IMG/VR virus record: IMGVR_UViG_3300026544_000008
Coordinates: 1 to 42,362 of that record
DNA length: 42,362 nucleotides
Reading direction: 5' to 3' (one strand)
Source: a virus
Position numbers and translations under genes: made by a program. The notes beneath the pieces were generated by a model. It saw nothing but the letters and a program-made list of their open reading frames with translations. It was not told the DNA's origin and searched no databases. Positions 1 to 38,752 of the stretch are shown piece after piece (the first letter of the stretch is position 1; each line of letters opens with the position of its first letter).

Positions 1-843
1 GAACGCTGTTCTTTCTATATCTGTTAACTTAAGTATGTAATCATACATCTCTTTCTCTTTAGAAATAGATTTAAAATATAACCTACTACTACGAAGAACC
101 ATACTCATGACATCATCTACAGTAGGTATTGTTATATTAAACTTACGTACTACATCTTCTATTAATTTTAGATCTACATGTGTTATAGTAGCTGTAATAG
201 AATTGATTACATTATATACATCTTTATAATATCTATTTCCAGATATAAGCATTTCACTAACAGCGTTACCTATTGATGCAACTGATCTAGTAGTACTTGT
301 TAATGAGTAATGTGCTGATGGATTATATAGAGGGGTAGATGTGATAGCGTACGCACCACTTAATGAGTTGTTAAATATCTTTAGTACTTTCTGTAGTACG
401 TTATAATAAATAAAGTTATCTGTATCACCAACTGCTTTAAAGTCAGCCATTTTCTTTTTGGCTACTTTTCTTTTATTTAGGTTTCCTAGGATAAATTTCT
501 TCTGGAAGGAATCTAGTTTGCTAGTATTTAGATAAGCTGTTAAGGAGGGTGCAATAATCTCTTTATTCTTATTTACTAAATTTAAGTATGTTAACAGTGA
601 TGTATTTATTTCTTCTTTATCTCCGTTTTCACCTCTTTCATATGCTTTTACTTTAGGGTCTTTTATATTAGACTCTTTTAAGGCTTTCCTAACTAACTTA
701 TCAGCTGTTAGTAAATCTACATCTAATTGTTTAGATATATACTTAGTAGCCTGCACTATGTAATCTTCTAATGGATTAATATGTCTATCATAGTCATGAT
801 AATCTCTTAGAAATGGGTTTTTAAATACTTCGTTATTAGACAC
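1..843 (-). CDS. Family-B DNA polymerase, C-terminal piece (fingers/motif B), truncated by window edge
   Basis: The 281 visible codons run off the left edge, so the C-terminus is missing. Residues 124-163 form the fingers/motif B block: RKVAKKKM, then the QKVLKIFNNSLSGAYAIT stretch, matching the family-B pattern KxxxNSxYG with Tyr replaced by Ser, followed by STTRSVASIGN where other family-B enzymes have AITxxGQ. Residues 238-281 (IPTVDDVM, LTDIERTAF) fit an insertion I associate with phiKZ-type phage polymerases; that is from memory. The start is a GTG at 843, placed seven bases after AAAGG; the upstream ATGs meet early stops. There is no exonuclease domain and no motif A (DxxSLYPS) before the motif B block, so this is one part of a split enzyme. 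Motif C (YxDTDS) should lie beyond the window. A separate gene at 24126-24404 carries a motif A. Confidence 0.8.
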   Translation of the reverse strand, partial: MSNNEVFKNPFLRDYHDYDRHINPLEDYIVQATKYISKQLDVDLLTADKLVRKALKESNIKDPKVKAYERGENGDKEEINTSLLTYLNLVNKNKEIIAPSLTAYLNTSKLDSFQKKFILGNLNKRKVAKKKMADFKAVGDTDNFIYYNVLQKVLKIFNNSLSGAYAITSTPLYNPSAHYSLTSTTRSVASIGNAVSEMLISGNRYYKDVYNVINSITATITHVDLKLIEDVVRKFNITIPTVDDVMSMVLRSSRLYFKSISKEKEMYDYILKLTDIERTAF

Positions 844-5624: not shown

Positions 5625-7091
5625 ATGGATAACGCAGTAATTGTAGGTGATATGATAGAATTATCACCTAGTACGACAGTAAAATTTACAGCAACAGAAG
5701 ATTGTTATTTATTTATAAATAGCACATTAATAGAACTAGGAACACCTGCCGGTTGGTTTAAATTTCCAACTAACACAAATGTACAAGTGAAAGAAGGTGC
5801 CTCTGTAAATGTTAGATCGTTAGACAGCATAAATACGTTTATGATTAATATTATAGATCAAACATATAACCCTGCGCCAGTTGGATCAGGTGCTGGTGGT
5901 GGTGGTATATTCGGTAAAACATCTGGTAATGGTTACGCTATTTTAGATTATGGATATAGTGAAAAAGAAACGACTGGTGATATGTCTATAGATATGTCAT
6001 ATATAGATAAAGACCGATTTCCTATGTCGAACGGTGATCATAGTATTATGATCTGTACTATGTCTGGTAGAGGTAGCGGTGTTGAAAGATACAATGGTGA
6101 CGTATTTATTACACAAATGGATGATGATAAATTTACATTTACTCAAGAATTTGTCACAGAAAGAACTAATTCCGGATCAGGATCTGGTAGTGGTTCAGAA
6201 GGAGACATGGCTAGTGTTTGTACATATTATAACGAAACATATAAACAAGGAACACGCGGAGAAAATAGTATAACATACGGTCGTAACGTTATCTGTGCGG
6301 AAAGCGACACTGTTGTAATTGGTAACGAAAACGTATCGACTGGAAAATCCAACACAATAACTGGTAACGGTAACTTCGTTTTATCTGGCGGTAACGTTGT
6401 ATTCGGTATTAATAACTATGTTGGGTCTTTTACTAAAAGAAAAGGATCATCTTTTAATACCGCTATCGGTAGTGTAAATATGATTTCATCAAGATCAGGT
6501 AACTGTACAGCTGTTGGTACAGGTAACCGTATATTTATAGGTAGTAATCTATACGCTATTGGTCAAGGTAATACCATAGGTAGAAGAACTTATAATTCAG
6601 GTAGTCTTTCTGAAACCTCTACTAATTCTATGCTAATAGGGTTTAATAATGAATCTTCTACACCTGATGGAACCAATTTAATTCTTGGTTTTGGTCAAAA
6701 TTTAGCATGTAATGTAACTGATTGTTTAGTTGTTGGTAAATGGAATCGTATTCGCGGTCATGAGAATGTAAACTATATGGACAAACCTGGTTTCATAGTA
6801 GGTATCGGTAGTTCTGATAGAAATCGAGCTGACGGAATGTATTTGTTAAATAATGGTTCACTATCACTCATGAATTCAAAGACTAGTGATGTCATGGCTA
6901 TAACTAACGACCACGGCGATAGATGCGGGGTTTTAACATATGGTCAAATAATGGAATATCTAAAAGATGGACAATTTGGTAATAGTTTACCTACGAGCGA
7001 TCCATCTATAGACGGTGTATTATGGAATAATAATGGTGCACTATATATATCTGAAGGCAATGACAGTGGTTCTGGTTCAGGTGGTGGTTGA
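5625..7091 (+). CDS. Tail fibre / receptor-binding protein with YadA-like beta-roll repeats
   Basis: Probably a trimeric fibre at the tail tip or baseplate. Residues 1-85 are an anchor domain almost repeated in the next gene (KFTATEDCYLFIN, NTNVQVK, YNP). A Gly-rich linker (87-97) follows. A middle domain leads to a second Gly-Ser linker (183-192). Residues about 210-375 are short repeats of the type IGNENVSTGKSNTITGNGN, typical of the left-handed beta-roll head of trimeric autotransporter adhesins and of many phage fibres. The C-terminal LPTSDPSIDGVLWNNNGALYIS (455-476) resembles a segment common at phage fibre ends, and the protein ends in GSGSGGG. AAAGGA precedes the ATG. The gene is followed by a palindromic hairpin, then the short fibre paralogue. 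Confidence 0.85.
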   Translation: MDNAVIVGDMIELSPSTTVKFTATEDCYLFINSTLIELGTPAGWFKFPTNTNVQVKEGASVNVRSLDSINTFMINIIDQTYNPAPVGSGAGGGGIFGKTSGNGYAILDYGYSEKETTGDMSIDMSYIDKDRFPMSNGDHSIMICTMSGRGSGVERYNGDVFITQMDDDKFTFTQEFVTERTNSGSGSGSGSEGDMASVCTYYNETYKQGTRGENSITYGRNVICAESDTVVIGNENVSTGKSNTITGNGNFVLSGGNVVFGINNYVGSFTKRKGSSFNTAIGSVNMISSRSGNCTAVGTGNRIFIGSNLYAIGQGNTIGRRTYNSGSLSETSTNSMLIGFNNESSTPDGTNLILGFGQNLACNVTDCLVVGKWNRIRGHENVNYMDKPGFIVGIGSSDRNRADGMYLLNNGSLSLMNSKTSDVMAITNDHGDRCGVLTYGQIMEYLKDGQFGNSLPTSDPSIDGVLWNNNGALYISEGNDSGSGSGGG

Positions 7092-7099
7092 TAATTAAA

Positions 7100-7131
7100 T
7101 ATCCTGACATAGCATATGCTATGTCAGGATA
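7100..7131 (+). terminator. 32-bp perfect palindrome between the two fibre genes
   Basis: TATCCTGACATAGCAT is followed immediately by its exact complement in reverse. It sits nine bases after the stop of the long fibre gene and is followed only by GTTTTA, so termination may be partial, giving less of the downstream fibre and hydrolase. A processing site is the alternative. Confidence 0.65.
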
Positions 7132-7168
7132 GACGTTTTAAGTGAAGTCTAAAACAAAAGGATACATT

Positions 7169-7801
7169 ATGAACAACGCTATAATAAATGGTGACACTAT
7201 AGAATTAGCAGCAGGAACTACTGTAAAATTTACAGCTACAGAAGACTGTTATTTATTTATAAACGATGAAAATATAGAGGTTAAATCTAATATAAGTTGG
7301 TTCAACTTAGTTAGTAATACAAACGTACAAGTAAAGAACGGTGATTCTATAATAATTAGATCTAAGAATACATTGAATCAAATAATAATACCTATAATTA
7401 ACTTTATCTATAACCCAAGAAACAATGGGTCTGTGGTGAGTAATAGTTTTTTAAAAAAGGTAACATATACAATAGGAGATATAGCTGTCGGTGAAACCGC
7501 TATGTATGAACTACCACAGATAGATACTGTATTTAGTCTAGAAGTAGTCGTAATAAGTTTAATAAAAATGTCTATTTCTAATAATACTCCATATAGAGTA
7601 GATATTATAGATGAAGACGGCGACAATAATGTAACTACCATGTACGCTACTGGTAAGTTAATAGGGACATTTATAGACTCTTCTGCGTTTAGTATTCCCG
7701 AGATGGCTGTTACTAGTATTAGAAAAATAAAAATTACTAACCTTAGTGACGACACAACATTATCAGGTTTATCATTTATGTTTATAGCTAACGGAGTTTA
7801 A
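7169..7801 (+). CDS. Short tail fibre-like protein sharing the N-terminal anchor (210 aa)
   Basis: Residues 1-82 are a paralogue of the N-terminus of the 488-residue fibre (identical KFTATEDCYLFIN, then SWF/GWF and NTNVQVK). The remaining about 125 residues are a different beta-rich domain without repeats. The family relation suggests both proteins dock on the same particle site through the shared domain and carry different tips. The ATG at 7169 has AAAAGGA at proper spacing; an in-frame GTG 27 bases upstream lacks one. One base separates its stop from the hydrolase ATG, and that gene's GGAG lies in the last codons here, so the two are coupled. Confidence 0.8.
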   Translation: MNNAIINGDTIELAAGTTVKFTATEDCYLFINDENIEVKSNISWFNLVSNTNVQVKNGDSIIIRSKNTLNQIIIPIINFIYNPRNNGSVVSNSFLKKVTYTIGDIAVGETAMYELPQIDTVFSLEVVVISLIKMSISNNTPYRVDIIDEDGDNNVTTMYATGKLIGTFIDSSAFSIPEMAVTSIRKIKITNLSDDTTLSGLSFMFIANGV

Positions 7802-7802
7802 T

Positions 7803-10685
7803 ATGGACCCGTTATTTAAAACATCTAATGATTTTGTACAAGTATCTAATAACTTGTATAGAAGTGGTGTTGATAAAGTAAACATAAGAGATACCGTTTA
7901 CGGAATCAATGATATGCATACTGAAGATACATATAGCAATAGTTCTGGTACTGTTTATGGAGAATGGTCTAAGGACGTAGGAGATTTAACGTTAACTCCC
8001 GATAAACAAGAACCTCGTTTATTATGTTTAAAGGGTAAACTATCTTTAAACTTTACAGGGAGCTCACTTATATTAAGAGTAGAGTTAAACACTAATTGGG
8101 GATCTTGTGAGATTTATATAGATGGTCAAAAACCTTCTACTATCACTGATATACTAAACCCTATAGATATTATAGATACAAACTCCGAAAATTACACAAA
8201 TATAAATTGGGCAGAATATAGAGATATACCTGTATGTGATAACTTACCAGATGAAGAACATTTGTTAGAAATATATTGTAATAACCCTGCTGAACAATTC
8301 TTTGTTATATCAGCTGTTAAAACAAGAACATATAATAATACATTTCCAATAAACCAGCTATGGAAAACTAATTTAGATACTAATTTAAATAATAGCTTTA
8401 TACTATTATATAATACATCTGAGAATATATTTAGAGACATACATCTATCGTTACCTAGTGATTTTGTAAAACCTGACGGAACTGTTTTTAATACTATAAT
8501 TGATATAGATGATCTAGCACCTACGGAGAGTTATCTGTTAGAGTATTCTATAAATGGTAATTTTAAACCAGATACAGTATCTTATAGTCCTAGTTTGGAT
8601 ATTACATATAAGGATCCAGATGGTGTGATAGATGTAGATACATTAAAGGTTTTAAATACAGATGATGAAAGATTTACTTATTCGACTGGTTGGACTAGCG
8701 ATAACAACGCACCTGAAGAAACTACTCGTAAGTATACTACCGACATAGATCAAACTTTAGATTTCATTATAGAATCTAAATCATTTACAATCACTGTTCA
8801 AAAAGATTATGGATGGGGTGAAGTAGACGTGATTGTTGTATATGATGAAGATACTGAAGACAGAGTGGGTTCACTATCGTCTCACGACGAAGATGGCGGT
8901 GGTTTCTTGGAAGATATATCAATAATAGATCTACCTGTAGGATTTAACCATATTAGATTTAGATCTAAGTCTGATAATCCGTTTGTGTTTACTAAGATAG
9001 AAACGATAGAACCCGTTGGACACACTAAAAGAACAGAAGTATTAACAATACCTACTGAATTTAAAAACACTCTACCGTCTACGGTGAATGGTGTTAGATT
9101 AGAAAATGGAACGCTTAAATACGATTATCCAGATAAACAATACGTTGACTATAACATACCATTAGATAATTCTGGTATAGATGCTATTGTGAAGGAAACT
9201 AGATTTCCTACTTATTGTGTCTATTACTCAGCCGGTAAGCAAGACGTTATGGAAACCTATGATTTAATTGTTTTAGAACCTTCTGCTATAACTAGAAAAG
9301 AGGTGGATCGTTATAAGTCACTAGGTATAAAAGTTATATGCTATATATCATTTGGCGAGGAGATGGGTTTCATTTCTGATATTTATGATCCTACATCTCA
9401 AGTATTACCTAACCGAGGAGATGGATCAGGTCCGTGTGGGTTTGCTCCTTACTTCTGTAAAGGTGGAGATAGATTCGGAGAATGGAATGAATGTCTACAT
9501 GACGATCAAAAAGAACACGGTATAAAAACATGTTCATTAGGAGATGGTCATTATTACGCTGAAGTAGGTAGATGCTCTAATAGATGTGGAAACGATTGGG
9601 TGGATGGTTATAGAGAATACATTAAAGGTGGGGTTTGTTCTAAAGGTTACACAAAAGAAAATAACTGGATTCGTAACTCTGCTGAAGCATGTGCGAATAC
9701 AAACTGTCAAGATTATGAACCTATACACGGTGGGTGTCCTCATTATGAAAAAGCAGACGCTTGGGCTCAAGATTTCTCTATAATGGATCAAGTATTACCT
9801 GACCAAAATGGTATATGGGATTCGTACTATGTAACAAATGTAAATGGTCATTGGGAAAAACGATTAAGAGATTATTATCTACCTACTATATTTAACGATC
9901 CTCTAAATATAAAAAATGAAGAACGTATATTAGAAGCACATGGTGATAAATTTGTATTTAGAACTAAAAGATATCCTATAGATAGTGGTGAAGTAATATC
10001 TATTAAGAAAGAGAACGGATACGTATATAAAAAGAATCTTGATTTTTCTTTTGATGCTGAATTAGGTTCTTTTATTTTACCAAATAACGCTGGTGAAACT
10101 GATGAGGAAGAGCCTCCTGCTGTCGGTGATAAAGTTTATATTACATATACTAAAAAAGGTTTAAATTGTGACGGTGTGTTTATGGATACTGTAGATACAG
10201 TGGATATATATCCATCACAAAATTATATGGAAACCTTTGGACAAATGATTAATGATTTAAAAAAAGATTTTCCAGATAAAGATTTCTGTTCTAATAGAGG
10301 ATTTAGTATTCTGAACGACATCATAGGTTCTTGTTCATATGTAATGTTTGAATCATTCTTGGTGGATTATAACTGGGAAACCGATGAATACGGAAAGATA
10401 GATGATCCTTGGGCTATAGATTGGAATCAGAGCATAATAGAACAGATGAATGAATTAAGAAAAACAAATACATTTGACGTATTAGCACTGAACTATTGTC
10501 ATAACGATTCTAGAGGTGATGAGTTAAGGACTTATATAGCAGAAGAGTGTGCTAAACTCGGTTATATATCATGGAGTTCTACCATATTATTAAACGATCC
10601 ATTACCTAATCTAGATGTACCTATGAGTCAAAAAGGACCTATTAGAAGTACACAATGGATTAAAGAAACAGAATATAAAGTTTAA
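7803..10685 (+). CDS. Tail-associated polysaccharide hydrolase, GH114-like, with Cys-rich insert
   Basis: Probably a virion depolymerase for host surface or biofilm polysaccharide. Residues 1-460 are beta-rich, with two jelly-roll-like, possibly sugar-binding parts (LRVELNTNWGSCEIYID; ITVQKDYGWGEVDVIVVY). From about 468 a TIM-barrel of the GH114 (endo-alpha-1,4-polygalactosaminidase) type begins: YDLIVLEPSAI and IKVICYISFGEE, then DGVFMDTVD (D795, D798) and MFESF (E850), the usual positions of the family's acidic residues. Residues about 540-655 are an unusual insert with about twelve Cys (GPCGFAPYFCKGG; CSNRCGNDW), perhaps zinc-binding or, if oxidised, disulfide-bonded. The known family cuts galactosamine polymers such as Pel; the substrate here is inferred. 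It follows two fibre genes in the same operon. Confidence 0.82.
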   Translation: MDPLFKTSNDFVQVSNNLYRSGVDKVNIRDTVYGINDMHTEDTYSNSSGTVYGEWSKDVGDLTLTPDKQEPRLLCLKGKLSLNFTGSSLILRVELNTNWGSCEIYIDGQKPSTITDILNPIDIIDTNSENYTNINWAEYRDIPVCDNLPDEEHLLEIYCNNPAEQFFVISAVKTRTYNNTFPINQLWKTNLDTNLNNSFILLYNTSENIFRDIHLSLPSDFVKPDGTVFNTIIDIDDLAPTESYLLEYSINGNFKPDTVSYSPSLDITYKDPDGVIDVDTLKVLNTDDERFTYSTGWTSDNNAPEETTRKYTTDIDQTLDFIIESKSFTITVQKDYGWGEVDVIVVYDEDTEDRVGSLSSHDEDGGGFLEDISIIDLPVGFNHIRFRSKSDNPFVFTKIETIEPVGHTKRTEVLTIPTEFKNTLPSTVNGVRLENGTLKYDYPDKQYVDYNIPLDNSGIDAIVKETRFPTYCVYYSAGKQDVMETYDLIVLEPSAITRKEVDRYKSLGIKVICYISFGEEMGFISDIYDPTSQVLPNRGDGSGPCGFAPYFCKGGDRFGEWNECLHDDQKEHGIKTCSLGDGHYYAEVGRCSNRCGNDWVDGYREYIKGGVCSKGYTKENNWIRNSAEACANTNCQDYEPIHGGCPHYEKADAWAQDFSIMDQVLPDQNGIWDSYYVTNVNGHWEKRLRDYYLPTIFNDPLNIKNEERILEAHGDKFVFRTKRYPIDSGEVISIKKENGYVYKKNLDFSFDAELGSFILPNNAGETDEEEPPAVGDKVYITYTKKGLNCDGVFMDTVDTVDIYPSQNYMETFGQMINDLKKDFPDKDFCSNRGFSILNDIIGSCSYVMFESFLVDYNWETDEYGKIDDPWAIDWNQSIIEQMNELRKTNTFDVLALNYCHNDSRGDELRTYIAEECAKLGYISWSSTILLNDPLPNLDVPMSQKGPIRSTQWIKETEYKV

Positions 10686-23101: not shown

Positions 23102-23626
23102 ATGATATTTTTATTAGTAGGTCCTAGTGCAGTAGGAAAGACCAGTATAGAAAACGAACTAGACATGGATAGAGTAACTATCTATACTAGTAGAGAGAAA
23201 CGAGAGATAGATGATGGATATATTCATTGTACGGTTGATGAAATAACAGATAATGAAGATTTAATAGTATATGCTAAGTTATCTGATGAATGGATATACG
23301 CAGTGTCTACTAAGGAATTACAGTCTGGTAAGAATATGAGTATAGCTATAATAACTAATAAAGCAGCTATTGTTATACAAAACTTACTTAAAGAATTATC
23401 TGTAGATTATAAGACAGTGATGTTATTAGTTCCTAGAGACATAAGAGTTAAACGTATGGTAGATAGAAACGATAGTGAAGAGAGTATATCTGCTAGGTTA
23501 GCTTTTGAAGACGACGATGTTAATAACGAAACTCTTAATGTAGATTATATTAATAGAATATACAACTATAAATATAAAAAAGATTTTGATGAAGTTATAG
23601 AATTTATAAACACAAACAAAGGATAA
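23102..23626 (+). CDS. Guanylate kinase-like nucleotide kinase
   Basis: Predicted P-loop kinase of the guanylate kinase type, which would phosphorylate (d)GMP. Residues 7-14 are GPSAVGKT. TSREKREIDDGYIHCTVDEI has the spacing of the family's TTRxxRxxExxGxxYhF GMP-binding segment, here shortened. An Arg-rich lid follows (VKRMVDRN). At 174 residues it is slightly below the usual 190-210. The ATG at 23102 has AAAGGA five bases upstream, inside the thyX stop region; an upstream in-frame ATG at 23084 lacks it. Substrate preference cannot be read. Confidence 0.82.
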   Translation: MIFLLVGPSAVGKTSIENELDMDRVTIYTSREKREIDDGYIHCTVDEITDNEDLIVYAKLSDEWIYAVSTKELQSGKNMSIAIITNKAAIVIQNLLKELSVDYKTVMLLVPRDIRVKRMVDRNDSEESISARLAFEDDDVNNETLNVDYINRIYNYKYKKDFDEVIEFINTNKG

Positions 23627-23629
23627 GTA

Positions 23630-24121
23630 ATGATGGAAGCGTATGAAATAATTAAGAATAGTAGATTGTATTTAGATTATCTAGAAGAGCATATAAAAAA
23701 TGTAGAGAAAGCTTTTAATAAACTAATAGGAACTAAGAATAATGTAGAATGCTTAAACGATAGTGAATTCTTAGTAATGTTAAAAGAAAGTGTTAGCCAA
23801 CACGACCTATCTAAGTTTACTAAAGAAGAGTTTGTACAATATAGAGAGAAGTTTTATGGTGGTATCGACGAACCAGCTTTTGATTTTGATGCAGCTTGGA
23901 TAAATCACTATACAAATAACCACCATCATATAGAGACTTATAAGACTATATATGATACTACTACTAAATTAAACATTATCCATATGGTAATAGATTGGAC
24001 AGCTATGGGATATAAGTTTGGTGATACAGCTAGAGCGTTCTATGAGAGTGATAAGATGGATAAGAAAGTACACGATGAGGATATAGATTTTTTATATAAG
24101 ATTTTTGAAGTAATAGAGTAG
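23630..24121 (+). CDS. DUF5662-family protein (163 aa)
   Basis: Belongs, by pattern, to the phage and bacterial family DUF5662, whose function is unknown. Visible landmarks are HDLSKFTKEEF (58-68) and AWINHYTNNHHHIETY (89-104), a His/Asp-rich core that suggests metal binding, followed by a helical end. It lies in the nucleotide-metabolism operon, three bases after the guanylate kinase stop, with AAAGGA upstream. A metal-dependent hydrolase-like role linked to nucleotides is inference. The second of two adjacent ATGs may be the real start. Confidence 0.8.
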   Translation: MMEAYEIIKNSRLYLDYLEEHIKNVEKAFNKLIGTKNNVECLNDSEFLVMLKESVSQHDLSKFTKEEFVQYREKFYGGIDEPAFDFDAAWINHYTNNHHHIETYKTIYDTTTKLNIIHMVIDWTAMGYKFGDTARAFYESDKMDKKVHDEDIDFLYKIFEVIE

Positions 24122-24125
24122 TGTT

Positions 24126-24404
24126 ATGGTAGATATAAACACTAACATAAGATTCCATGTATACGATATAGATGCCGTATCTTCGTATCCTTCAGATAGT
24201 GTTGCGTTAAATTTATCAAAGATAACCACAAAGAGAGAATTGATAGACGTAGAGGGTGTGGAAAAGGAAACATTCAAGATGAATAATATAAATCTAGTAA
24301 TGGGTCCTATTAATACAGTAAGATACGCTAATGAGATGCTTAATGCTCCGCAACTATCGGATCTATTGAGTACAATAAAAGAAACATATAATCCAGACGC
24401 TTGA
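24126..24404 (+). CDS. Mini-protein carrying family-B DNA polymerase motif A
   Basis: Residues 13-36 (YDIDAVSSYPS, NLSKITTKREL) match family-B motif A, DxxSLYPS followed by the conserved N-x-S-x-x-T, with catalytic Asp at 16. The rest (to residue 92) continues like the part after motif A and then stops. No exonuclease or fingers domain is present. It is not a frameshift: the gene has its own start four bases after the previous stop, sits in an operon, and ends cleanly with its stop inside a hairpin. The piece at 1-843 carries motif B, so an active palm would need both proteins together. An alternative is a dead remnant. Confidence 0.7.
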   Translation: MVDINTNIRFHVYDIDAVSSYPSDSVALNLSKITTKRELIDVEGVEKETFKMNNINLVMGPINTVRYANEMLNAPQLSDLLSTIKETYNPDA

Positions 24405-24420
24405 ATGCGTCTGGATTATA
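24387..24420 (+). terminator. Hairpin at the end of the motif A gene
   Basis: TATAATCCAGACGC and GCGTCTGGATTATA form a 14-bp stem with a 6-base loop holding the stop codon. No U-run follows, and downstream genes of the same strand begin 51 bases later with no clear promoter, so partial termination or processing is likely. Confidence 0.65.
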
Positions 24421-24471
24421 TATTAAAAATCCTCCATACTGTTATGTATTGAAAAGTAAGAAAGGACAGAG

Positions 24472-24801
24472 ATGAAGATTACGATACATCATGATAAGAC
24501 ATTACCACATATTAACTATGTGTCATATGTAGAAGGATTAAAGCATATAGAATCTAATATATCTTTTTATACACATTGTATACAGTTTTTAAATATGTAT
24601 GTAGAAGAAGATAATATAAAAGATATAATTGTAGAAACAGACGGTGATAAGATAATTTCTATAAAAGAGTTATTCATGAACACTGGAATTTATACAGCTA
24701 AAGAAATTAGAAAAGGTCATAATATCGTTAAGTTATTCTTAGCTAATGGATTTATACCTAAAGAAAGGTTTGGTAATGAGAAAGAAAATAGAAACAAATA
24801 G
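24472..24801 (+). CDS. Unknown protein (109 aa)
   Basis: I do not recognise this protein. It begins MKITIHHDKTLPHINYVSYV, has a helical centre and a Lys/Asn-rich end, and shows no motif of note. GGACAGAG precedes the ATG. Its last 26 bases overlap the start of the RecJ gene, so the two are coupled, suggesting a DNA-metabolism link. Confidence 0.75.
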   Translation: MKITIHHDKTLPHINYVSYVEGLKHIESNISFYTHCIQFLNMYVEEDNIKDIIVETDGDKIISIKELFMNTGIYTAKEIRKGHNIVKLFLANGFIPKERFGNEKENRNK

Positions 24802-26515
24802 AGAAGTCTATGATGAAGTAAAGAAATTAGGTTATTCTAACCTAGTAGCTAGTATTGTAGGAAATAGGATAAAGGACCCTTTATTAGTTAAAGGCGTACT
24901 AACTCCTACCATAGATGTAGTTCCGTCGTTAGATCGTCTCCTAGACGCACACAAAGCAGCTAATATAATATATACACATCTTATAGCCGGTGGAAACATT
25001 GTAGCCATCACTGATTCAGATTCTGATGGCGTTTCTTCAGCCGCTATTATATATAGATCTATTATAGATTACTTCAATCATGATGTGGAGTCACTACACG
25101 TTTTAGTAAACGAAAGACTTTATGGTAACGGTGTAAATGATGAAATGATTAAAAGAACCTTAGCTATTCATAAAGAAAGAAAAGTAGATTTAGTTATAAC
25201 TGCTGATCATGGTTCTGCTGATGATGTTAGATTTGGTATTCTTAAGAAAGAAGGAGTTGGAGATATAGTTGTAACAGATCACCACTTACTCCCTAAAGAA
25301 GGAGAACTAGAATATAGTGACGCTTTCGTTAATCCTCAAAGAGATAACGATACATTCAGTGTTAATATATCTGGTTGTCATGTTATATATTTAGTTATGA
25401 CACTAGTGTATGACCTATTTAAGAACAATGGACATAGAATTTTAATAGAAGACAATATGAGAACTATATTACCTATTATGACAAATACCATACTATCCGA
25501 CCAAATGGATATGAGAGATCCTATAAATAGATACTATCTAAAAGAAGGTCTACATGAATTATCTAACTCTTTAGATATCATATGGGTAGCGGCTAGAGAA
25601 TTACTAGATTTACCTAAGGTAGTAACCGAAGAGACTATATCGTTTATGATAGCTCCATTGCTTAATGCTGCTAATAGAACCGGTAAAGCTTACCTAGCAT
25701 ATGAATTCTTAGTGTCTAGAGATATACATGATGCAATAGCTAACTTAAAAGTATTAATTAAGTTAAATAATGAACGTAAGAAAACAGAATCCACTATGTT
25801 AGCTATAGCGAACGCAGGGGTTAAACTAAATCCTTATTCTAACTCTATAGTAACACTACTACCAGAAGGTTTAGGTGTAGCTGGTCTTATATCTAATACT
25901 CTAGGAGATAGATTACAAGTACCTGCATTTACATTTGTAGAAGGAAGAGAAGGTAATCTAGTAGGTAGTGGTAGAGGAATAGTAGAAGGTATTGATTTAA
26001 AAGGAATACTAGATACTATAACCAAAGAAGATCCTACTATCATTATTAAAAGTGGTGGTCATAAAGGTGCTGCTGGTTGTACTATAAGATCTGAGAAGAT
26101 AAGAGAGTTCATGGCTATGTTTGATAAGCTAGCAGAAGCTACTAAATCAGAAGATGGTGTCGTTAATAAATATGACATAGAAGTACCGTTTGAGTATATA
26201 GGCGATAACCTATACGATGAGATACAGAAAGCTGGTCCTTACGGTAGAGGTTATGATAGACCTACTATAAAAACAGATATCATATTAGAAATGTTTAGAT
26301 ATATAGGTAAACCACCTATGCATGCTATACTTAAGATATACAATAAAGAAAGAACTATGATGCACGAAGCATTCTTTCCAAAGTCAGCCATGATAAGATT
26401 AATGAAATATAAACAAAACATATCTACAATCTTATTTACATTAGGTAAGAAAAGATATCTAGGAAAAACAACAGTATCACCAACAATTTCAAGTATAGGA
26501 GAAAGGGATGAGTAA
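24776..26515 (+). CDS. recJ: RecJ-like single-strand DNA exonuclease (DHH/DHHA1)
   Basis: Predicted 5'-to-3' single-strand exonuclease for recombination and repair. DHH-domain motifs in order: AITDSDSDGVSS (about 77-88), ITADHGSAD (141-149), VVTDHHLLPKE (166-176, the DHH), and SDQMDMRDP. The DHHA1 domain has SGGHKGAAGC (about 426-435). The OB-fold end is present, and 579 residues is close to bacterial RecJ. The ATG at 24776 (MRKKIETN) has AAAGG seven bases upstream; an in-frame ATG at 24746 lies earlier without a site. Neighbours are polymerase motif A and dNMP kinase. Confidence 0.93.
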   Translation: MRKKIETNREVYDEVKKLGYSNLVASIVGNRIKDPLLVKGVLTPTIDVVPSLDRLLDAHKAANIIYTHLIAGGNIVAITDSDSDGVSSAAIIYRSIIDYFNHDVESLHVLVNERLYGNGVNDEMIKRTLAIHKERKVDLVITADHGSADDVRFGILKKEGVGDIVVTDHHLLPKEGELEYSDAFVNPQRDNDTFSVNISGCHVIYLVMTLVYDLFKNNGHRILIEDNMRTILPIMTNTILSDQMDMRDPINRYYLKEGLHELSNSLDIIWVAARELLDLPKVVTEETISFMIAPLLNAANRTGKAYLAYEFLVSRDIHDAIANLKVLIKLNNERKKTESTMLAIANAGVKLNPYSNSIVTLLPEGLGVAGLISNTLGDRLQVPAFTFVEGREGNLVGSGRGIVEGIDLKGILDTITKEDPTIIIKSGGHKGAAGCTIRSEKIREFMAMFDKLAEATKSEDGVVNKYDIEVPFEYIGDNLYDEIQKAGPYGRGYDRPTIKTDIILEMFRYIGKPPMHAILKIYNKERTMMHEAFFPKSAMIRLMKYKQNISTILFTLGKKRYLGKTTVSPTISSIGERDE

Positions 26516-27110: not shown

Positions 27111-27111
27111 G

Positions 27112-27143
27112 ATATATACGATAGCATGTGCTATCGTATATAT
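27112..27143. terminator. Bidirectional hairpin between convergent operons
   Basis: ATATATACGATAGCA and its complement form a 15-bp stem with a 2-base loop between the dNMP kinase (+) and tube (-) genes. It can serve either direction. Confidence 0.75.
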
Positions 27144-27149
27144 TATTGT

Positions 27150-28028
27150 TTATGCTTTCGCTCTATCTTTGTCAATACTATAATTGAATTTACTGTCAGT
27201 TACGGCAGCAGTCATATTAGTAGTATCTACAGCAGGAACAACATTATCAGGGTTAATATAAGTAGCAGTTAGTTTATCTAACATAACTTGTCCTAACTCT
27301 CTAATAGATTGTCCGTACATCATAATACCACCAGTTTCAATATCATACACTACCATTTCACCAGCAGCAGAAAGATCTCTTTTAGAAGTTACCGCACCAG
27401 CTGTGTTAGGAGATTGATTAATGACAAGGTATGCTTCAACCACTCTACAGTGTGTAATATCCGGTTCTACGAATATAGTAGAGAATGTATAGTAATCAGG
27501 AGTATATAGAATTCCTTTTTTGAATCCAGGTAGTAAAGTTACTAGTGGTTTCTTAACATTAGGATCTTGTATACCATATCTAATATATAGATCCAAGAAT
27601 CTATTAATAGGTTTACCATCTTTCTCTCTAAGTGTATACTTAACAGCAGATTCAGGTCTTTTAACATTAGTGATTTCATGTTGGACTTGTCCACCACCAC
27701 CAACGTTATGTTGATCTTTCTCTACAGTAAGTGTAGCGTCTAATCCATCAATAGTTTCAGGATGTACTTCGAAGATAGAAATAAATGTTTCTACCCAGTC
27801 TTTAGGGTTTGGAAAGAACTCAAAGAATTTAGGAGTTTCTAAAACAAATGGAATTACTTGTCTACTAATGTGAGCAGCGTTGTTAATCCATTCCCCATAC
27901 GTTTTCCCGTCAGGCATTTTAGCACCTAGTACGGGAAGAGCTCCTTGTTGTGATCCATATTTTAGATCCAGAGCTGTGTGTTTAACACCATGTAAGTCAG
28001 TGTCTCTTACGGCTGTATTTAATCTCAT
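27150..28028 (-). CDS. Tail tube protein
   Basis: Proposed inner tail tube protein. At 292 residues, directly after the sheath gene, it has the size and place of the phiKZ tube protein (gp30 after sheath gp29). The sequence is mixed beta-rich with KFFEFFPNPKDWVETFIS, TLLPGFKKGILYTPDYY and FSTIFVEPDITHCRVVEAYL; the order of strands fits a phage tube fold. No enzymatic motif. AAAGGA precedes the ATG. Assignment rests on synteny and general character, not on a motif. Only 17 bases separate it from the sheath gene. Confidence 0.75.
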   Translation of the reverse strand: MRLNTAVRDTDLHGVKHTALDLKYGSQQGALPVLGAKMPDGKTYGEWINNAAHISRQVIPFVLETPKFFEFFPNPKDWVETFISIFEVHPETIDGLDATLTVEKDQHNVGGGGQVQHEITNVKRPESAVKYTLREKDGKPINRFLDLYIRYGIQDPNVKKPLVTLLPGFKKGILYTPDYYTFSTIFVEPDITHCRVVEAYLVINQSPNTAGAVTSKRDLSAAGEMVVYDIETGGIMMYGQSIRELGQVMLDKLTATYINPDNVVPAVDTTNMTAAVTDSKFNYSIDKDRAKA

Positions 28029-37531: not shown

Positions 37532-38752
37532 TTACTTCTTCGTACTTTTTATAGCTAATAACATTATGTATATAGCCAATGCTATTACAACTGTGACAAC
37601 TATACGGTTAGTTTTCTTACCAGTAGCTTTAACAGTAAACTTATACGCTAATGCTTTAAACTTCTTATTATCAGCATCTTTAACTTTACTATTTATCCAA
37701 AACCCTCTAAGATATTTTACTATAGCTATAATAGACTTATCATATGGTGGATATAGTTTAGATAAATATAGATATCTAATATTTGCGTTTATAGATGTAT
37801 TCACTAATTCATCTATCTCTTTTTTATTATCTACGTAGTTATCAGATATATAATCCAGTACTTTCTTTAACTCTTTTTCATGTAGATTTCTATAGAGTTC
37901 TTTCATTATCTTTATATAATCTTCATTTACGAATTCATTCTTTCTATAGATAATGTCTAATATAGATGTATGATATATATTATTAGAATGGATTACATCT
38001 AGTAACTTCTCATCACCTTCTTCATCTGTAGCTAGTAAGGATCTAGTATCTCTAGATTCAGCAGTTTCTTTAACTTCATAAACTACCTTAGTCATCTCTT
38101 TCACAATACTTCTTAACTTACCTTGTAGGTCAGCTATTACATATGTAGCATCAACGGTTTTAAAGGTCTTCAATCTTTTTACATGTACACCTTTAGGTTC
38201 GTATATATCTTCAGCTTTATTCTCAAATAGTTTCTGCCAAGAACCCACTCTCTTAAGTATAAACTTATTAGATAGTTTTTCAAATACAGCAGATGCTACA
38301 TCTTTATCTAGACTGAACTTATAGAAGTTGGTCATTAGACTAGAGAATATCTCTATCGCTAAAATAAAATAAATCTCTAATAATAGTTTATTCTTATTTC
38401 TTTCAGATTGTTTACTTATTATAGTTAAGTGTGCTATGTATAAAAGTAAAAGATATCTAGGGTTACTTGACACATGTCTTTCTTTATAGATATCCGGTAG
38501 ATCATGTAGATCATCTCTTAGTGATCTAAAGTCAAGATTAAATATAGCATATATCTCTTCTTCATCGCTCTTTGTAAAACGGATAGGATAAACACCTATA
38601 AGGTTACTGGACATAAAGTTTATATGTGATTCATTTTTATAAATCCAATTGGTTCTAAACGCTCTTAAAGAATCGTATAATTTCTTATCTATTTTTATGT
38701 TTCCTACATGATATAGGAACACTTCAGATATTTCTTTAAATCTAGATTTCAT
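37532..38752 (-). CDS. Tail-anchored protein of unknown function upstream of terL (406 aa)
   Basis: I do not recognise this protein. It is helical and charged for most of its length (ISEVFLYHVGNIKIDKKLYD; LLLLYIAHLTIISKQSERN) and ends with one hydrophobic segment, about 384-401 (IVVTVVIALAIYIMLLAI), followed by KSTKK, so it may be C-terminally membrane-anchored. First gene of the late unit that includes the terminase. AGGAG lies before the ATG. The role, perhaps in packaging at a membrane or in the virion, is inference. Confidence 0.75.
   Translation of the reverse strand: MKSRFKEISEVFLYHVGNIKIDKKLYDSLRAFRTNWIYKNESHINFMSSNLIGVYPIRFTKSDEEEIYAIFNLDFRSLRDDLHDLPDIYKERHVSSNPRYLLLLYIAHLTIISKQSERNKNKLLLEIYFILAIEIFSSLMTNFYKFSLDKDVASAVFEKLSNKFILKRVGSWQKLFENKAEDIYEPKGVHVKRLKTFKTVDATYVIADLQGKLRSIVKEMTKVVYEVKETAESRDTRSLLATDEEGDEKLLDVIHSNNIYHTSILDIIYRKNEFVNEDYIKIMKELYRNLHEKELKKVLDYISDNYVDNKKEIDELVNTSINANIRYLYLSKLYPPYDKSIIAIVKYLRGFWINSKVKDADNKKFKALAYKFTVKATGKKTNRIVVTVVIALAIYIMLLAIKSTKK

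Follow-up and report, generated by a model that had tools for sequence, protein, structure and literature searches.

A stand-alone motif A gene points to a three-protein family-B DNA polymerase in a nucleus-forming, phiKZ-like phage

Virus record IMGVR_UViG_3300026544_000008, an AT-rich genome fragment of 42,362 bases analysed here at full length (the window), encodes two pieces of a family-B DNA polymerase on opposite strands. One is a 92-residue protein with catalytic motif A; the other is the beginning of PolC, which carries motif B. The features are as follows.

24126..24404, plus strand: stand-alone motif A gene, 92 amino acids, ATG to TGA, equivalent to the C-terminal tail of the larger protein PolN
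24165..24194, plus strand: motif A, DIDAVSSYPS, residues 14-23, with the Asp16 codon at 24171-24173
24210..24230, plus strand: N-L-S-K-I-T-T block after motif A, equivalent to N-[IV]-S-x-x-T of family B
24383..24424, no strand assigned: 18-bp inverted repeat with the motif A gene stop codon at its loop and a terminator-like score on the minus strand only
1..843, minus strand: first 281 amino acids of PolC, running off the contig; PF20286 3-272/705, E=6.1e-72; phrog_2927
355..381, minus strand: motif B, KIFNNSLSG, PolC residues 155-163

The inverted repeat is likely the end of a transcription unit. The short open reading frame (ORF) ahead of it, which starts 4 bases past the end of a DUF5662 gene, matches the PHROGs family phrog_3011 ('DNA polymerase') at positions 482-567 of 576 (E=1.3e-19) and was the sole window match to a profile of relatives from which the window had been left out (E=1.6e-38); Pfam alone gave no match on the 92-residue protein. 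Asp16 aligned with the motif A aspartate of RB69 gp43 (DLTSLYPS), and D16-A-V-S-S-Y-P-S is followed by N29-L-S-x-x-T at a spacing equal to that of RB69/T4 gp43 DLTSLYPSIIRQVNISPET. Both signatures of phrog_3011, D-x-D-x4-Y-P and the N-x-S-x-x-T tail, are present in the window protein. By these sequence criteria the ORF is genuine and encodes part of a DNA polymerase. An initial annotation of the window had called a separate motif A protein here, with its own start and clean end; both calls were confirmed, and homology to family B is clear.

A tblastn search located the 92-residue segment in 273 phage records, mostly of phiKZ-type phages, where it forms the C-terminal end of PolN, a protein of about 550-620 residues with a family-B exonuclease in front. 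PF03104 matches 14 of 34 PolN, and the PolN profile is colinear with RB69/T4 gp43 from the exonuclease (283-380) into motif A (404-430). The AlphaFold model of one PolN (L002) had RB69 gp43 as its nearest PDB structure (E=1.3e-13); the short motif A profile alone gave weak PDB matches only. The D-x-D of motif A, including the equivalent of Asp16, does not vary among the 34 fused PolN and is also present in each of the three stand-alone proteins described below, so the residue proposed as catalytic is indeed retained in relatives. Across a wider set, motif A was out of view only at intron cuts through it and was altered in one divergent sequence (L112). AlphaFold modelled PolN residues 1-433 confidently and left the motif A tail mostly below 50 in predicted local distance difference test (pLDDT) score; therefore the split lies in a probable flexible linker. 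In-frame insertions of about 60-75 residues occur within the exonuclease part of PolN from L091, L102 and L112.

The partner gene at 1-843 is, as judged by its family matches, the known divergent family-B polymerase of phiKZ-type phages. Motif B was found in 38 of 38 PolC and the literal xSDTDS form of motif C in 17 of the 38, with aligned DTDST columns at 90% or above across the set; none of the 38 contained a motif A-like match. Complete PolC relatives likewise have motif B and an SDTDS-type motif C and lack motif A. The motif C region of window PolC is off the contig; motif C is present in all eight relatives on its branch of the PolC tree. The initial annotation had correctly placed motif B in this gene, and its label of a fingers/thumb part proved too narrow for a PolC that has motif C too in complete relatives. 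The profile searches it proposed gave a mixed return: PF20286 matches PolC, PF00136 scores PolC under its cut-off and Pfam finds nothing on the 92-residue protein. A missing PF00136 match is therefore no proof of absence. AlphaFold folded PolC well on its own (mean pLDDT 89.5), and a PolC profile gave nothing useful against PDB. These motif distributions indicate that in the phiKZ-like group the palm is divided between PolN (motif A) and PolC (motifs B and C). An exonuclease encoded elsewhere, apart from the PolC-type polymerase gene, has been described by Iyer et al. (PMC7824862), and the two-part PolN plus PolC enzyme is already published and normal for this phage family.

Among viral contigs surveyed, PolN occurs in three states: fused (most), interrupted by a group I intron, and truly separated. 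True separation was found in the window and in two other contigs, G002 (IMG/VR 3300028534_000015, 156 kb) and G001 (3300037333_000017, 106 kb); among 60 inspected records, sampled across the 279 phage records with PolN, no isolate looked like such a distant split. The polymerase genes of the two contigs are:

G002, 23411-25468: PolC
G002, 59921-61288: exonuclease, 481 amino acids, without motif A
G002, 91242-91487, opposite strand: motif A gene, 106 amino acids
G001, 10277-10522: motif A gene, 104 amino acids
G001, 49652-51019: exonuclease, 469 amino acids

The three G002 genes lie more than 30 kb apart from one another, and 39 kb separate exonuclease and motif A in G001. Each of the three records has a single motif A, never in the same ORF as the exonuclease. 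The exonuclease-only gene anticipated by the initial annotation was not found in the 42-kb window and is a separate gene in both other contigs. These exonuclease proteins end past the conserved W-I-I-T-L-E-x-S-R-I strand, where similarity is lost and unrelated C-termini follow; the stand-alone proteins start a little ahead of motif A. In G001 the motif A gene is preceded by a GAGGAG ribosome site (a strong Shine-Dalgarno sequence); in G002 it is preceded by a terminator-like hairpin and AGGG, and it probably has its own ribosome site. The G002 exonuclease gene lies where PolN normally does: it is divergent from a gene for an HExGH protease-like protein, an arrangement shared with Moabite, FLC9, PhiPA3, Goslar and L008. 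The tail is therefore the part that moved. With an exonuclease, a 106-residue motif A protein and PolC all on one contig, G002 supports the earlier proposal that three or more proteins make up the polymerase.

The 92-residue protein is thus very probably the catalytic motif A subunit of a three-protein family-B replicative DNA polymerase. Among nucleus-forming relatives the enzyme consists of PolN (N-terminal domain, 3'-5' exonuclease and motif A tail) together with PolC (motifs B and C and a thumb-like part). In the window lineage PolN would have been cut in the flexible linker ahead of the first palm strand, leaving the tail as its own gene elsewhere. The free tail may fold only on PolC, a proposal based on the AlphaFold models, in which PolN 1-433 and PolC are folded and the tail is left unfolded. 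It would complete the palm by contributing the first palm strand, which bears motif A, so that Asp16 and the motif C aspartates of PolC together hold two metal ions. The linker to the exonuclease would be dispensable, such that after the cut the active site still forms from two proteins. The separate exonuclease, as the third part, would dock on the same complex and proofread.

Several points weigh against this interpretation. Assembly into a working, active enzyme is something that we infer, with models as a guide. The window exonuclease gene and the C-terminal part of window PolC with motif C would lie outside the fragment; therefore the three-part state of the window phage is deduced from G002 and G001, and the G001 fragment is itself without PolC. 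The fold of PolC matches family B weakly (E about 2e-5, template modelling score about 0.28). Finally, the motif A tree does not recover the three stand-alone genes as a single clade, and a long-branched fused sequence (L008) stands beside the window.

The other trees bear on the origin of the split. Window and G002 PolC are joined with support of 100/99 and adjoin G008-G012 and G016, in which PolN is either fused or broken by introns; the exonuclease tree joins G001 and G002, also at 100/99. A window gene at 37532-38752 shares 48% identity with G001 and no more than 29% with any other relative compared. One clade of stand-alone motif A genes was not rejected by the approximately unbiased test (p=0.43), and these sequences are most simply explained by one fission event in a single lineage, though this is unproven.

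A non-functional remnant, left after polymerase replacement or after gain of a new motif A elsewhere, is very unlikely. The records are incomplete and a replacement could lie outside them, but the stand-alone proteins retain the catalytic and adjacent conserved residues in three lineages at about 50% identity, and the genes are intact in three differing neighbourhoods. G002, moreover, keeps PolC and the exonuclease with its single motif A in 156 kb. Neither PolA nor PolIII alpha was found in the window, G001 or G002, and PF00136 matched only PolC itself; a complete polymerase with its own motif A was likewise found in none of these records, all of them incomplete.

The exonuclease and motif A genes might instead encode one protein as two exons that a trans-spliced group I intron brings together in the RNA. 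Such an intron would yield two far-apart exons, and PolN of relatives is a group I intron hotspot (RF00028 matches), with insertions within motif A and at the W-I that precedes the tail. At least three intron sites cluster just ahead of or inside motif A, some loci with two or more introns; the hotspot loci are L029, L041, L048, L049, L056, L058, L070, L073, L092 and PhiPA3 (L173:6285-6590). Against trans-splicing, RF00028 matched neither the window nor the regions around the pieces in G001 and G002. Between the upstream gene and the ORF there are 4 nt in the window and about 20 nt in G001, which leaves no space for a 3' half intron outside the ORF. The own starts of the stand-alone genes, with the strong Shine-Dalgarno sequence in G001, and the unrelated C-termini of the exonucleases also argue against RNA-level joining, which we regard as even less probable than a remnant. 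Intron-driven breakage as the route to gene fission is plausible because the hotspot is close to the break, and no direct trace of it was found.

Apparent splits at the hotspot loci and in L102 and Goslar were not accepted as true gene fission, since their pieces lie side by side and what separates them is in most cases a group I intron signal and, in L102 and Goslar, an ORF of the intron endonuclease type. In L113 and phage vB_PQ1 the pattern resembles divergence or frameshifts. The PhiPA3 exon with the motif A tail (frame L173:6618-6872) is unannotated in its record. Goslar has an intron-type ORF between its PolN exons (L174:6060-7250, NUMOD1/HNH per its annotation), and ORFs resembling it lie between PolN exons at L048:4318-5712 and L102:7735-8814.

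Being a lone small protein whose gene lies in neither the exonuclease nor the PolC transcription unit, the free motif A protein could be no subunit but a regulatory copy, acting as a competitor or controller of a full polymerase. The searched records held no second motif A, hence no full polymerase to regulate was found, and we give this reading very little weight. Least credible is an assembly artefact in which a contig wrongly links the 3' terminus of PolN with a different gene, since, for all that the window is a metagenome contig lacking the exonuclease part, its junction has a clean start and stop codon, and two independent contigs with other flanks hold the same stand-alone gene and exonuclease genes that end cleanly without motif A.

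A three-protein polymerase with a separate motif A subunit can be set beside several known systems. The phiKZ-related split subunit polymerase (PolN, phrog_3011; PolC, PF20286/phrog_2927) has the same two homologues, the same motif A tail and the same motif A/B division, with motif A fused to the exonuclease, whereas in the window, G001 and G002 motif A is a third, unlinked gene. AR9 likewise has an exonuclease plus 'partial catalytic domain' protein together with a catalytic subunit. Novelty is thus limited to detachment of the motif A tail as a third gene, one step past the known two-part version; the division that the initial annotation considered unusual is new in that respect and already normal as a two-protein PolB. 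Aeromonas T4-like phages 25 and 44RR, with split gene 43 (43A/43B), also distribute a family-B polymerase over multiple polypeptides, and the phage 25 proteins co-purified and were polymerase-active (PMC2988022), a precedent for the assembly proposed here. That T4-type enzyme has two parts rather than three, and its split is associated with a homing endonuclease gene or an intercistronic untranslated sequence. Intron-interrupted PolN (PhiPA3 gp085 and its 3' exon, Goslar, L058, L073 and others) is the same gene broken just before or inside motif A; its exons are adjacent and presumably rejoined by RNA splicing, whereas here tens of kb separate the genes and the searches showed no intron. Split PolIII alpha of group 2.2 jumbo phages (Iyer et al. 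2021, PMC7824862) similarly places a polymerase catalytic domain in distant genes, with a fold and division unrelated to those of the window system.

The remaining gene content assigns the window to a nucleus-forming, phiKZ-like phage genome, of which it is a piece, because it includes a chimallin-type nuclear shell gene together with tail sheath, large terminase and NAD-dependent ligase genes. The shell gene, by which nucleus-forming phages are recognized, is:

937-2724: chimallin shell gene, phrog_4795, E=3.5e-23

The 5' series leading to and including the motif A ORF comprises ThyX, guanylate-kinase-like, DUF5662 and motif A genes; on its 3' side follow a 109-residue gene, RecJ and a deoxynucleoside monophosphate (dNMP) kinase. 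Window RecJ, used as bait, recovered no relatives among viral contigs. A near-perfect palindromic, terminator-like hairpin (27111-27144) separates the dNMP kinase gene from the convergently oriented virion structural gene (27150-28028). Two neighbouring proteins at 5625-7801 have alike N-termini, IELSPSTTVKFTATEDCYLFIN and IELAAGTTVKFTATEDCYLFIN, a repeated N-terminal module. A 960-residue protein at 7803-10685 matches phrog_37372 (unknown function) over its full length (E=1e-257); it is much nearer its family than are most proteins of the window phage and is possibly a recent acquisition.

If correct, the three-protein enzyme would be the most finely divided natural replicative polymerase of family B that we found, in a literature search that reached few subscription journals. 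The metal-binding aspartate of motif A would reside on its own protein of about 100 residues, and the palm would be completed in trans. It is conceivable, albeit doubtful, that with the palm so built from a free motif A protein and a motif B/C protein, and with a third protein proofreading, supply or nuclear import of the motif A protein could switch the polymerase on or off, an idea prompted by the motif A gene having its own transcription unit. The finding also suggests that in the known two-part enzyme the motif A tail is an unfolded segment and acquires its fold on PolC. The closeness of the break to a group I intron hotspot would offer a testable path from intron to gene fission.
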